Shown here: positions 21,502 to 56,522 of the stretch, piece by piece
Position numbering within the stretch: position 1 is the first letter of the stretch
Layout: the number at the start of each line of letters is the position of its first letter
Source of the DNA: Saccharospirillum sp.
GTDB lineage: Bacteria > Pseudomonadota > Gammaproteobacteria > Pseudomonadales > Natronospirillaceae
DNA: 64,000 nucleotides
Assembly: GCA_018402545.1 (NCBI GenBank)
Contig: JAGYIL010000001.1
Span: 1,364,001 to 1,428,000 of the forward strand
Direction: 5' to 3'
Notes under the pieces: generated by a model
The model's database searches: none
What the model saw: only the letters and a program-made list of their open reading frames with translations
What the model was told of the DNA's origin: nothing
Translations under genes and position numbers: made by a program

Positions 21502-21636
21502 GTAGGAAGCCAGTCCCCTGGGTGACGGGGAGAAGGCAGTGCCCCTATCACAAGCGACTGGCTCCAACAGCGAAATTGCCAGGGGTGATTTCAATGGCCG
21601 GGGTGCTCCCTGTCGCCCAGAGGACTGGCCTCCCAC
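21502..21636 (-). repeat. REPIN-like element, reverse orientation to the 33.9-kb array
   Basis: A left arm beginning GTAGGAAGCCAGTCC (21502) and a right arm ending GGACTGGCCTCCCAC (21636) form an inverted pair of REP-like sequences, each headed by GTRG on its own strand. The left arm continues GACGGGGAGAA, which is the reverse complement of the right-arm side in the 33.9-kb units, so this copy is inverted relative to them. Confidence 0.8.
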
Positions 21637-21661
21637 GAGTACGGTGGTAATTGAGTCTTAT

Positions 21662-21703
21662 GTAGGAAGCCAGTCCCCTGGGTGACGGGTAGAAAGCAGT
21701 GCC
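21662..21703 (+). repeat. Single REP half-element
   Basis: GTAGGAAGCCAGTCCCCTGG and about 20 further bases repeat the left arm of the 21502 element almost exactly (differences only near the end). No right arm follows before the end of gbcA. Confidence 0.75.
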
Positions 21704-31850: not shown

Positions 31851-33124
31851 GCCTTCGAATCAGACGCAACCCGCGCCTGGAGCGCATTCGGCGCAACCGT
31901 CTGCACCCGGAGTATGAGTCATTAATGGCGGCAAGGGTTTCGGCGATTGGTCCAACCGGGCTGCGCCGGATCAACCCGCATCAAACCGGCTTTGTGATGG
32001 TTCAGGGACGCAAGCGCCTGAATCGCCTGAACCCGGACGGGGTTGGGTTTGCTGGCGCTGGCCAGCCTGGCAGGGTGCAAGCCAAAGAGAAACCGCTGCA
32101 CCGCGTCGCTGATCCGCTCGGTTATGTAGCCGCTGTGCTGGATCTGCCAGGCGGTCGGCTTAGCAGTCATGACCGGGATGTGCTGGGGCTGGCCCAGCAA
32201 CTGGCACAGGCTAAAGATGAACCCCATGCGGTATTGGCCATTGCGCTTGGCGATGTGCGGGAAACCGACCTGGGCGGTGCCGGTGCCGACCGGGTGATTC
32301 AGTTAAACCAACTGCACAATGAGCCATTAACCGGTTATTGCCCCGAGCTCAAACGGGCGATACTTAACGCCACTGAACAACACTACCAGCCCGCCTTCTG
32401 GCTGTTTCCGGACAGCATCGACGGCGGTGCGGACCTGGGCTCTCGCTGGGCCGTGCAACTGGGCGAACGAGCTGCGGTGCAGGCCTGGCAAGTCAGTAAG
32501 GAAACGACTGTGTGTCGGGGTGGCAGCCAACTAACTGACTGGCATCGCCCGACGCCTCGGGTATTGCTGCTCGCTCCCGAATGCGGCGCCCCGGTTGAAG
32601 AACTTCGCCACGAAGCCTTGCCGTTGGAGCTGACGTTACCCGAGCCGGTGTCAGTGACTATTGAAGACCTTGGCCCGGTCAGTGTCGACCCCAGCCAGAT
32701 CGCCCTGAGTGAAGCCGAATTTATTCTGGCCGCCGGTAATGGCGTTCGCAACTGGGACCAGTTTCATCAGGTGGCGACCGTGTTGGGCGCAACCGAAGGC
32801 GCCAGCCGGGTCGCGGTTGATGATGGCTATATGCCACGCCACCGGCAGGTAGGTGCAAGTGGCACCTGGGTATCGGCGTGGGTCTATTTGGCCGTCGGTA
32901 TTTCCGGTGCCATCCAGCATCTTCAGGGCATTGGCCAGTGCGAAACCGTTATCGCCATTAACCTGGATGCCGGCTGCGACATGGTCCGTCGGGCTGACTT
33001 GACGGTGATTGCCGACAGCGAAGCGGTGTTTGCCGAATTGCTGAACCTGATGAATGAACGTCAGACGGGCATCGCCCCTCAGGGCGTTACAGTACACGAA
33101 GGAGAGGCTCGCCATGTTGCCTGA
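31847..33124 (+). CDS. etfA: Electron transfer flavoprotein alpha subunit, dgc-linked
   Basis: A 425-residue EtfA-like protein, longer than standard EtfA (about 310) because of an Arg-rich N-terminal extension of about 85 residues. The FAD-binding region contains GASRVAVDDGYMPRHRQVGASG. In pseudomonads such long EtfA and EtfB homologues lie beside dgcAB and are thought to serve the demethylase rather than fatty-acid oxidation. The start ATG overlaps the dgcB stop by 4 bp. Confidence 0.9.
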   Translation: MSLRIRRNPRLERIRRNRLHPEYESLMAARVSAIGPTGLRRINPHQTGFVMVQGRKRLNRLNPDGVGFAGAGQPGRVQAKEKPLHRVADPLGYVAAVLDLPGGRLSSHDRDVLGLAQQLAQAKDEPHAVLAIALGDVRETDLGGAGADRVIQLNQLHNEPLTGYCPELKRAILNATEQHYQPAFWLFPDSIDGGADLGSRWAVQLGERAAVQAWQVSKETTVCRGGSQLTDWHRPTPRVLLLAPECGAPVEELRHEALPLELTLPEPVSVTIEDLGPVSVDPSQIALSEAEFILAAGNGVRNWDQFHQVATVLGATEGASRVAVDDGYMPRHRQVGASGTWVSAWVYLAVGISGAIQHLQGIGQCETVIAINLDAGCDMVRRADLTVIADSEAVFAELLNLMNERQTGIAPQGVTVHEGEARHVA

Positions 33125-33920
33125 ATCACGTTCCAAAACTATGGCCAGTCAGGCCATGAAAATCGCCGCCCTGGTCTCTGTTGGCCAGCATCCACTGTCG
33201 CGCCGCGAGCGCCGGGCCGATCAGGATGCCCGTGCCGTGGAGCTGGCGCTCTCGCTCTCACCAGAATTGCCCAGCCTGATCCATGTAGGCTCAGCCCGGA
33301 ATGAGTCACTGCGTGCGTATTTGGGCATGGGGTTGAATAATTTGAAGGTGCTGAATGCAGATCAGGATGTCGATGCCGTCCCCGCGCTGGCAAGCTATCT
33401 GGGTGAACAGGCGTTGGACATCGTATTAACCGGCGTGCGCGCCGAGTGCGGTGAAGGGTCTGGCTTGCTGCCCTATGCGGTGGCGGATCAGTTGGGCTGG
33501 CCCATAGTGCCTCGCATTGTGTCAGTAGTCTCCATTGCAGGCGGTTATGCTGAGGTCTGGCAAGCCTTACCCCGGGGGCAACGACGCGCCTTGCGCGTGC
33601 CACTGCCCTTCGTCGCCAGTGTCGACCCGGCTGCGGAACCGGCCCGCCAATCAGCCTTCGGCCCGGCGCAGCGAGGTAGCATCGATTCCCGCCCTTGTGC
33701 GGCAGAGCCGGACCAGGCCCGTGCCAACTGGCAACAACACCCCGCCAAACCCAGACCTAAACGCCTGGCCGTGGCCAAAGGCGGCACCGCCGCAGAACGC
33801 ATGAAAGCAGCCACTGCCAAACCCCAGGGGCAGGGCGGGCAGGTGATCACCGAAGGGACGGATCGGGAGAAAGCCGAAGCGATACTGGCCCGGTTAGTGG
33901 CTGAGGGTGTGGTGCGGTAA
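33114..33920 (+). CDS. etfB: Electron transfer flavoprotein beta subunit, dgc-linked
   Basis: A 268-residue EtfB-like protein beginning with MKIAALVSVGQHP after about ten extra residues. The middle (LDIVLTGVRAECGEGSGLLPYAVADQLG) is the AMP/FAD-facing part typical of EtfB. The ATG at 33114 has GGAGAGG upstream and overlaps etfA by 11 bp; ATG 33141 is a possible alternative. The C-terminal 60 residues are basic and low in complexity (Lys/Ala/Pro-rich). The stop is 17 bp before the REPIN array. Confidence 0.88.
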   Translation: MLPESRSKTMASQAMKIAALVSVGQHPLSRRERRADQDARAVELALSLSPELPSLIHVGSARNESLRAYLGMGLNNLKVLNADQDVDAVPALASYLGEQALDIVLTGVRAECGEGSGLLPYAVADQLGWPIVPRIVSVVSIAGGYAEVWQALPRGQRRALRVPLPFVASVDPAAEPARQSAFGPAQRGSIDSRPCAAEPDQARANWQQHPAKPRPKRLAVAKGGTAAERMKAATAKPQGQGGQVITEGTDREKAEAILARLVAEGVVR

Positions 33921-33937
33921 CGAGCGTATTCTCATTC

Positions 33938-34783
33938 GTAGGAGGCCAGTCCCCTGGGCGACCGGAAGCATCGGGGCCACAGAATATACCCACAGCCAAA
34001 AAGGCCAATGTCACTGATTGGTTGTTCTCCCCGTCACCCAGAGGACTGGCTTCCCACAAAAAGTTGAAAACACCACCCTACCCGTAGGAGGCCAGTCCCC
34101 TGGGCGACCGGAAGCATCCGGGCCACAGAATATACCCACAGCCAAAAAGGCCAGTATCACCGGTTGGTTGTTCTCCCCGTCACCCAGAGGACTGGCTTCC
34201 CACAACAGATGAAAACACCACCATACCCGTAGGAGGCCAGTCCCCTGGGCGACCGGAAGCACCCGGGCCACAGAATATACCCACGGCCAAAAAGGCCAAT
34301 ATCACCGGTTGGTTGTTCTCCCTGTCACCCAGAGGACTGGCTTCCCACAACAGATGAAAACACCACCATACCCGTAGGAGGCCAGTCCCCTGGGCGACTG
34401 GAAGCATCCGGGCTACAGAATATACCCACAGCCAAAAAGGCCAGTATCACCGGTTGGTTGTTCTCCCCGTCGCCCAGAGGACTGGCTTCCCACAACAGAT
34501 GAAAACACCACCATACCCGTAGGAGGCCAGTCCCCTGGGCGACCGGAAGCACCCGGGCCACAGAATACAGCCATTGCCAAAAAGGCCAGTATCACCGGTT
34601 GGTTGTTCTCCCCGTCACCCAGAGGACTGGCTTCCCACAACAGATGAAAACACCACCATACCCGTAGGAGGCCAGTCCCCTGGGCGACCGGAAGCATCCG
34701 GGCCACAGAATATACCCACGGCCAAAAAGGCCAGTATCACTGGTTGGTTGTTTTCCCCGTCACCCAGAGGACTGGCTTCCTAC
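33938..34783. repeat. Tandem array of six REPIN-like units (145-bp period)
   Basis: Six copies begin with GTAGGAGGCCAGTCC at 33938, 34084, 34229, 34374, 34519 and 34664. Each is a 120-nt unit of two inverted REP-like sequences, followed by a near-constant 25-26-nt spacer. In each unit 25-nt arms pair, and smaller stems (CCGG-N6-CCGG, GCC-AAAAA-GGC) lie between. Heads read GTAG and GTGG on opposite strands, the GTRG signature of REP elements. The array fills the whole gap between two convergent genes, and the GTAG head of the last copy supplies the lacI-type gene's TAG stop. Confidence 0.93.
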
Positions 34784-35778
34784 AAAAGAAGCTGGCTAAC
34801 TGTGTTGCGCTCAACCAGCGTCGGCTCAAACTGACTGGCTTGGCTTTCAGCCTTGTTGTAAATGCCATCCAACGCCATCCGCGCCGACGCCTGTGCCATT
34901 TCAAACATCGGGAAATGCAGGGTGGTGAGCTTGGGGTTAACGTACTGGGCGGTCAGGCTGTTATCGAACCCGATGAGCGACAACTGGTCCGGTACCCGAA
35001 TGCCATGGTGTTCGGCCGATTCCAGCACACCAAAGGCCATTTCATCGTTACCGGCAAACACGGCGGTTCCATCAAACTGGCGTTCGAGCAGGGTTTCCAT
35101 GGCCTGATAGCCACCGGCGAGTTCGAAGTAAGTGTTGACGACCCAGTCATCCGGCACCGCAATGCCGGCCTCCGACATGGCCCGGTGATAGCCCTGAAGT
35201 CGATCGTGGGCATCCGGCTTCCAGGTCTGGCCCATAATGCAGGCAATGCGCCGGTGCCCCTTGTCCAGCAGGTAACGTGTTGCGCGGTAGCCACCGAGTT
35301 CGTTGTCGAGCGATACACAGCGGTGACTGAGCGTTGTGACCGGGTGGTTGATCAGGAACACCGGCACACGCTGGTTTAACTCGACCAGCTCTGCATCTTC
35401 CAGTCGTTCCACCATCAACAGCAAACCATCGACCTGCCGGTTCACCAGAAATTCTATGGCTTCACGCTCAAGGTCGGCATCACCGTGTCCGGCGGCGATG
35501 ATCAGGTGCTTGTGAGCCTGGCGCAGGGTATTTTCGACCCCGGCCATCATCGGCCCGTAAAACGGGCCCTCCAGTTTGGAAACGACCATGCCAATGGCAT
35601 TGGACCGGCTGGAAGCCAGCGACTGAGCCGCCGAATTGGGCCGGTAACCCAGGGCCTGCATCGCCTGGTTTACCCGTATTTTGGTTTTCTCCGTCACCCG
35701 GTCGCTGCCGTTGATCACCCGGGACACAGTCGCCTGGGATACACCCGCCAGGTCGGAGACTTCTTTCATGGTGATCAT
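34780..35778 (-). CDS. LacI-family transcriptional regulator
   Basis: A 332-residue LacI/GalR regulator. The N-terminal helix-turn-helix MKEVSDLAGVSQATVSRVING is at residues 4-24, and a hinge with a sugar-binding periplasmic-protein-like domain (about 60-330) follows. It is next to GH16 and GH3 genes, so it probably senses an oligosaccharide from beta-glucan. An exact LacI-type operator at 40437 may be a target. The start ATG at 35778 follows GAGGG by 8 bases; an internal ATG lies at 35769. The stop codon falls inside the last repeat unit. Confidence 0.93.
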   Translation of the reverse strand: MITMKEVSDLAGVSQATVSRVINGSDRVTEKTKIRVNQAMQALGYRPNSAAQSLASSRSNAIGMVVSKLEGPFYGPMMAGVENTLRQAHKHLIIAAGHGDADLEREAIEFLVNRQVDGLLLMVERLEDAELVELNQRVPVFLINHPVTTLSHRCVSLDNELGGYRATRYLLDKGHRRIACIMGQTWKPDAHDRLQGYHRAMSEAGIAVPDDWVVNTYFELAGGYQAMETLLERQFDGTAVFAGNDEMAFGVLESAEHHGIRVPDQLSLIGFDNSLTAQYVNPKLTTLHFPMFEMAQASARMALDGIYNKAESQASQFEPTLVERNTVSQLLL

Positions 35779-56092: not shown

Positions 56093-56522
56093 CTAGCGCA
56101 ATGGCGGAGTCGTCGTTCGAGCCCTCGCGGCAATACCAGCGATGACAATCAACAGCAACAGCGCGGCCTCCACCGCCCAGGCGGCCAGAATGCCGGTTGA
56201 GGGCATGCCATCGACAATCAGCCCCAGCATTCGGCCTGCAACCAGGGCCGTGTAGGTCATGCTGGCGATCACCAACGCCGTGGATTGCAGCGACGGTTTT
56301 ACGACTCCGGCCAGCATCACGCCTCCTGCCAGCATGAGTATGGAGCCCAGGGTTTTAAGATCACTTCGAAGGCTCGCAGACTCGGGCACCGTAATCCCGT
56401 AATCCCGTAATCCCGTAAGACGCGTAAAACGCATCGGGCATTAGCAGAATGGCCATGCCGATGACTGCCGTGAGCGCACCCGCAGTAATGAGGGTTAACT
56501 GAACCAGCCGTAGGTTTTTCAT
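56093..56522 (-). pseudogene. DUF4345 membrane protein gene, frameshifted by an octanucleotide repeat
   Basis: The ATG at 56522 follows GGGAG by 7 bases and comes 11 bp after the NmrA-like stop. It encodes a membrane-segment start (LVQLTLITAGALTAVIGMAI) as in DUF4345 proteins. At 56391-56414 the plus-strand unit GTAATCCC occurs three times, and the frame is lost, ending at TGA 56361-56363 after 53 residues. The rest of the protein, with three membrane segments, is open in another frame to 56093. Removing two repeats (16 nt) restores one 137-codon frame with a junction reading YASYGITVPESAS. It is off in this sequence; switching or a sequencing error are both possible. Confidence 0.85.
56391..56414. 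repeat. Octanucleotide tandem repeat (GTAATCCC)x3 inside a gene
   Basis: Three perfect 8-bp units followed by a partial GTAA. The unit length is not a multiple of three, so each gain or loss changes the reading frame of the DUF4345 gene. Confidence 0.95.

Follow-up and report, generated by a model that had tools for sequence, protein, structure and literature searches.

A six-unit tandem REPIN cluster between convergent genes in Saccharospirillum sp.

A stretch of 64,000 nucleotides of Saccharospirillum sp. DNA (assembly GCA_018402545.1, contig JAGYIL010000001.1, positions 1,364,001 to 1,428,000; here called the window) carries, at window positions 33938-34783, six tandem copies of a unit made of two inverted repetitive extragenic palindromic (REP) sequences. 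The repeat is a cluster of REPINs (REP doublets forming hairpins), arranged like the class 2 bacterial interspersed mosaic elements (BIME-2). Most probably, a REP-associated tyrosine transposase (RAYT) inserted a founder REPIN at the end of a lacI-type gene (its 3' side), and this founder was then amplified locally in tandem. The array is an ordinary local six-copy pile-up of REPINs, of a kind already described in other bacteria.

Organization of the array

A sequence-only reading of the window had described six units with a period of 145 bp and a first spacing of 146, and the starts of the plus-strand heads agree with it (33938, 34084, 34229, 34374, 34519 and 34664, giving spacings of 146, 145, 145, 145 and 145). 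Tandem Repeats Finder reports the same repeat at 33937-34789 (period 145, 5.9 copies, 94% matches, score 1522), and the only two remaining rows within the window score 56 and 60. Each 120-nt unit consists of a 25-nt head (head A), 70 nt, and an inverted 25-nt head (head B). One spacer of 26 nt and four of 25 nt separate the units; the four 25-nt spacers are identical to each other and similar to spacers in other arrays. Both heads follow the GTRG rule, as had been proposed: all six plus-strand heads begin with GTAG, and the minus-strand heads begin with GTGG in five of the six units and with GTAG in the sixth, at the outer end of the array.

33938-34057, plus strand: REPIN unit 1 (head A, 70 nt, inverted head B)
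34058-34083, no strand: 26-nt spacer after unit 1
34084-34203, plus strand: REPIN unit 2
34204-34228, no strand: 25-nt spacer after unit 2
34229-34348, plus strand: REPIN unit 3
34349-34373, no strand: 25-nt spacer after unit 3
34374-34493, plus strand: REPIN unit 4
34494-34518, no strand: 25-nt spacer after unit 4
34519-34638, plus strand: REPIN unit 5
34639-34663, no strand: 25-nt spacer after unit 5
34664-34783, plus strand: REPIN unit 6, whose outer head B begins with GTAG on the minus strand
34780-34782, minus strand: TAG stop codon of the lacI-type gene, supplied by the GTAG of the terminal REP
33054-33920, plus strand: left neighbor, electron transfer flavoprotein (ETF) domain gene
34780-35778, minus strand: right neighbor, LacI-family regulator gene
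21502-21686, no strand: three related REP heads in a smaller cluster, separate from the array but of the same family

The array fills the whole gap between its two convergent neighbors, as the earlier reading had it, running from 17 bp past the stop of the ETF-domain gene (33920) into the stop codon of the lacI-type gene. The latter gene ends ...CAGCTTCTTTTGTAG, with the REP continuing directly after. The LacI protein has 332 residues, against 330, 331 and (extended) 354 in the orthologs of three relatives (G002, G003 and G005). A stop codon supplied by a REP is a known phenomenon, because GTAG REPs are reported often to supply TAG stop codons for flanking open reading frames (ORFs) (PMC3733652); REPs have also been described as located near stop codons (PMC12306157).

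That the array is an assembly artefact is extremely improbable. The assembly is a draft of 11 contigs, and the assembled array may have collapsed or missing copies. Against an artefact, the six units differ from each other by substitutions (mean column identity 95%) and are therefore not a single copy repeated six times by the assembler; furthermore, the flanks of the array are unique, and other arrays of the same family have counterparts in another species.

Two short tandem repeats, with units of 18 bp and 8 bp, lie elsewhere in the window at 56301-56335 and 56389-56418.

The REP family and its transposase

The genome under study (G000, with its contig C1) was compared with that of a sister species (G001) and those of four further relatives (G002-G005). 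The proposed unit proved to be dispersed well beyond the window array. Allowing up to three mismatches, 121 REP heads were matched across the genome (56 + 65), with none (0 + 0) for a reversed-pattern control, and a search with the 145-bp unit gave 99 matches at E <= 10, of which the long ones at >=80% identity are all on C1. REP-core matches numbered 120 in G000 (control 1), 33 in G001 and 3 in G003 (control 1), and no such match was found in G002, G004 or G005. The head starts vary between species, with GTAG in 36 of the 43 heads collected from G001 and GTGG in 95 of the 141 from G000.

For unit calling, two heads were joined when they lay 55-80 nt apart, at selected loci in two genomes; this yielded 65 units. 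Those of the A/B type in G000 number 38, one of them with a degenerate A head, and fall at 10 loci with 6, 6, 2, 2, 1, 1, 1, 8, 7 and 4 units. Not included in these counts are a truncated unit at 1853383-1853462 (B head GTAG), a solitary incomplete head at 1865480, two pairs of diverged sequence that lie upstream of the RAYT gene, and heads paired at distances other than 55-80 nt, among them those of the cluster at window position 21502. A second tandem family combines head A with a head C, in which a stem base pair is swapped, at a period of about 160 bp (loci L062, L063, L064, L069 and L085). In the sister species, a third head class with a GGGCAG...CTGCGC stem has several matches close to one another (L236 on C51 and L237 on C53).

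The RAYT gene called for by the sequence-only reading is also present, with the same REPs around it. Only one match to Y1_Tnp was found in the assembly at E <= 0.001, the assembly being 95% complete. This gene, at C1:1871296-1871736, encodes 147 amino acids and scores 139 bits against the NF047646 model of REP-associated tyrosine transposases (cut-off 80). Its product also matches the TnpA-REP structure 4er8 (E 3e-9), with an aligned HxH stretch and an aligned tyrosine at residue 122, which we take to be the catalytic residues. REPs lie upstream of the gene, and downstream of it is an array with four units of the 145-bp type. RAYTs related to this one are common: a search of the named genome collection gave 526 stretches that encode one, and most of the 80 that were kept are from Pseudomonas. 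In G001 the sole match is 30% identical, and there is none at the orthologous site. At that site (L235, G001 contig C4) both the RAYT gene and the array are missing, and about 108 bp of other sequence, including another G+C-rich palindromic repeat, is found. A 47% identical RAYT in G003 (L225, contig C7) is flanked on either side by REP-like heads of its own, whose stem differs and is more perfect.

The repeat shows these features of REPINs: two inverted REPs forming one unit, a GTRG-type tag with an imperfect palindrome, dispersal in the genome, and a RAYT gene with REPs of this family around it. The array is BIME-2-like, with REPs in alternation and two linkers that likewise alternate along the tandem. 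The site for integration host factor (IHF) that BIME-1 elements carry between their two REPs was not seen, as no match to the IHF pattern with at most one mismatch lies between the paired heads of the array. In the literature library used, no paper was found on both Saccharospirillum and REPINs.

The palindrome of the head is reflected in paired sequence changes. The 190 heads taken from fetched loci (141 from G000, 43 from G001 and 6 from G003) reduce to 45 distinct heads when the loop is disregarded; they were picked by likeness to four templates, which favors paired heads. Among these 45, positions 7-22 are G-C in 30 and A-T in 12, positions 9-20 are C-G in 32 and G-C in 6, and positions 12-17 are G-C in 32 and C-G in 9. 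Positions 8-21 form a G-G mismatch in 35 of the 45.

Origin of the array

The earlier suggestion of tandem amplification is supported by a tree built from 42 A/B units, with any rows containing N and a G001 pair of another type left out, in which the six window units form one clade with support 100/98. Single clades are also formed by the arrays L080, L075 and L076a, while L074, L079a, L079b and the G001 pair L221 are not single clades. Body identity among A/B units averages 0.940 within arrays (87 pairs) and 0.858 between them (616 pairs). Copy number also differs between the two sister species, whose orthologous loci in G001 carry REPs, three of these being arrays in G000. At C1:147272-148027 there are five units in G000 and two in G001, and at C1:1803042-1803314 there are two and one, with no run of N at either locus; at C1:1784630, with six units in G000, the G001 counterpart is spoiled by a run of N. 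Some 36 nt of the unique left flank of the array at C1:1864892-1865943 (L079) recur inside that array, and the unit that comes next is identical to its first one; the duplication at this locus therefore included non-REP DNA.

In the favored model, the RAYT would have inserted a founder REPIN at the 3' end of the lacI-type gene, which the GTAG of the outer REP now terminates. Unequal recombination or replication slippage between repeats would then have produced tandem duplication and homogenization. The founder unit probably already included its spacer, as the spacers shared between arrays suggest.

Several observations weigh against this model. The arrays L074, L079a and L079b point to exchange between arrays, or to some other history, at those loci, and in the tree of 20 second-family units the arrays L063, L064 and L085 are likewise not single clades. 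Spacers from different arrays have a mean identity of 0.739 (106 pairs of distinct spacers), compared to 0.504 (sd 0.074) after shuffling, so that the spacer probably belonged to the unit before it was dispersed. Site-by-site duplication of a bare 120-nt REPIN fails to account for these shared spacers. The copy numbers in G001 may be underestimates, because that assembly is a draft of 150 contigs. An empty site corresponding to the window locus was not found among G001-G005. Finally, a single head folds no better than its shuffles as RNA (z 0.03 and 0.02) and slightly better as DNA (z -1.29 and -1.28).

The lacI-ETF junction at which the array lies was not seen in any of these five relatives either. 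In G001 the ETF-domain gene is unmatched, and the LacI homolog is one of only 44%; the two genes are apart in G002 and G003, and one of the two is lacking in G004 and G005. Of these last two, G004 has the ETF-domain gene and G005, like G001, gave no match to it. The lacI ortholog retains a neighbor of the GH16 family in G002, G003 and G005.

Since the founder probably included the spacer, there is room for multimers made by the RAYT itself. In the model of PMC2817692, cleavage at REPs frees a unit, rolling-circle replication multiplies it, and a ready-made multimer is inserted. This is a possible but distinctly less probable origin for the window array. Consistent with it, the spacers move together with the unit, and inspection by eye finds a minus-strand CT 4-5 nt before the terminal B head at 7 of 10 loci. 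In TnpA-REP enzymes that have been studied, GTAG serves as a guide and CT is a cleavage site (PMC8266576). Agreement between guide and cleavage site (GTAG with CT, GTGG with CC, after the same paper) gave no clear pattern by eye and was not counted. Apart from the array adjoining the RAYT gene, 8 of the other 9 A/B loci lie within 88 kb of that gene, a distance set post hoc; the exception is the window array, about 473 kb away. On the other side, the captured flank piece in the 1864892 array ends off any REPIN boundary, and plain recombination explains the likeness within arrays equally well. Capture of rayt 3' ends in BIMEs was taken in PMC2817692 as favoring the rolling-circle model. The copy-number difference from the sister that lacks a RAYT at the site is weak evidence both ways, as the change may lie in the species of G000.

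A related proposal is that the arrays are locked by their ends, with a terminal B head whose GTAG suits CT cleavage, inner B heads that have drifted to GTGG, and the RAYT handling the entire array with its spacers as a single mobile unit; we regard this as improbable. Position 3 is A in the terminal B heads of 9 of the 10 loci (one of them ATAG) and in 5 of the 28 inner B heads. Fisher's test by heads gives p = 1e-4, but within an array the inner units are copied from one another, and the proposal was rejected. Among the 7 arrays with at least two units, 4 combine an RTAG end with mostly GTGG heads inside, none shows the reverse and 3 show no difference; this result is not significant. In the window array, the terminal GTAG could be kept in place by the lacI stop codon by itself.

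Possible effects on transcripts

The sequence-only reading had also proposed that the minus-strand RNA, reading out of the lacI-type gene, is the folded form. The pairing counts behind this proposal were reproduced: in unit 2 the arms form 21 Watson-Crick pairs, three G-U pairs and one mismatch on the minus strand, and 21 Watson-Crick pairs, one G-U pair and three mismatches on the plus strand. The minus-strand fold is indeed more stable (-69.1 and -69.5 kcal/mol for two units, compared to -54.1 and -58.9 for the plus strand), and both strands are far below their shuffles (z -6.5 and -6.8 for minus, -5.2 and -5.5 for plus). What did not hold is the use of this difference as evidence of function. 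Two of the four non-Watson-Crick positions, 7 and 22, change in a compensatory manner from head A to head B within the hairpin of each head, and they add one G-U pair and one mismatch equally to either strand; the strand bias of the long arms is therefore limited to positions 3 and 16. These two would be concordant by chance half the time, making the hint at an RNA strand a weak one. The minus-strand RNA idea was dropped despite the more stable fold of that strand; the head classes account for the asymmetry.

More generally, the array might be retained as an RNA or DNA regulatory element between the convergent genes, acting as a terminator, an mRNA stabilizer, or a gyrase or IHF site. This is unlikely. 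The A/B loci lie between convergent ORFs in 5 of 10 cases, tandem in 3 and divergent in 2 (scored from the longest ORF at <=400 nt on each side; 17 of the 20 neighbors have a Pfam match), but adding six second-family loci changes the distribution to 5 convergent, 7 tandem and 4 divergent (n = 16). REPs of the GTAG families are placed mostly between tandem and convergent ORFs (PMC3733652). Terminator-like matches number 5 compared to a shuffle mean of 1.4, four of them being one repeated minus-strand site. The greater stability of the minus-strand fold fits a regulatory role, but its asymmetry is explained by the head classes as above. An Rfam search of 33800-34900 gave no match at gathering scores, and a sigma-70 promoter scan of 33850-34860 found none. 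The IHF-like pattern, scanned with what we take to be the consensus, occurs 37 times in the window compared to a mean of 31, and 18 of 100 shuffles have as many, which is the level of chance; one match lies within the array, at 34057-34069. Any effect on the neighbors, whether on the mRNA 3' end or on convergent read-through, is regarded as an unproven by-product.

In 4 of the 6 units the minus strand has the same weak hairpin with a run of T after it, at 34151-34163, 34441-34453, 34586-34598 and 34731-34743.

Relation to known REP systems

The statement in the sequence-only reading that REPINs are mostly single doublets is correct for Pseudomonas fluorescens SBW25, where most are single, but the same paper describes 16 tandem clusters that include flanking sequences (PMC3116915). 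The largest ordered REPIN cluster there has four REPINs, some of the clusters lie beside RAYTs, and tandem REP arrays of 12 REPs also occur. In Xanthomonas campestris, REPs are mostly within large clusters (PMC2817692). A tandem array is therefore not unusual in kind, and tandem REPIN clusters have been published in PMC3116915, PMC2817692 and PMC3733652.

The arrays described here resemble the SBW25 clusters in that one of them adjoins a RAYT gene, and differ from them in having up to eight units rather than at most four REPINs and in their REP sequence. With BIMEs and BIME-2 they share regular spacing, alternating REP orientation, head-to-tail modules, RAYT association and the capture of neighboring DNA in linkers (PMC2817692). 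The inter-REP segments of Stenotrophomonas are described in that paper as having no mutual homology, whereas here both linkers of the 145-bp family are alike between arrays. The likeness extends to the GTAG REP superfamily (PMC3733652), in which the GTAG tag, stem subfamilies with complementary changes, GTGG variants, tandem reiteration including flanking DNA, and TAG stops for flanking ORFs are all found; the available text of that paper has no mention of the present sequence family.

The analysis contributes a REP family whose heads pair in two combinations, in 145-bp and approximately 160-bp arrays, with arrays of up to eight units. The sister species, with a RAYT present in one and absent from the same site in the other, provide a natural setting for asking whether array turnover needs the RAYT.
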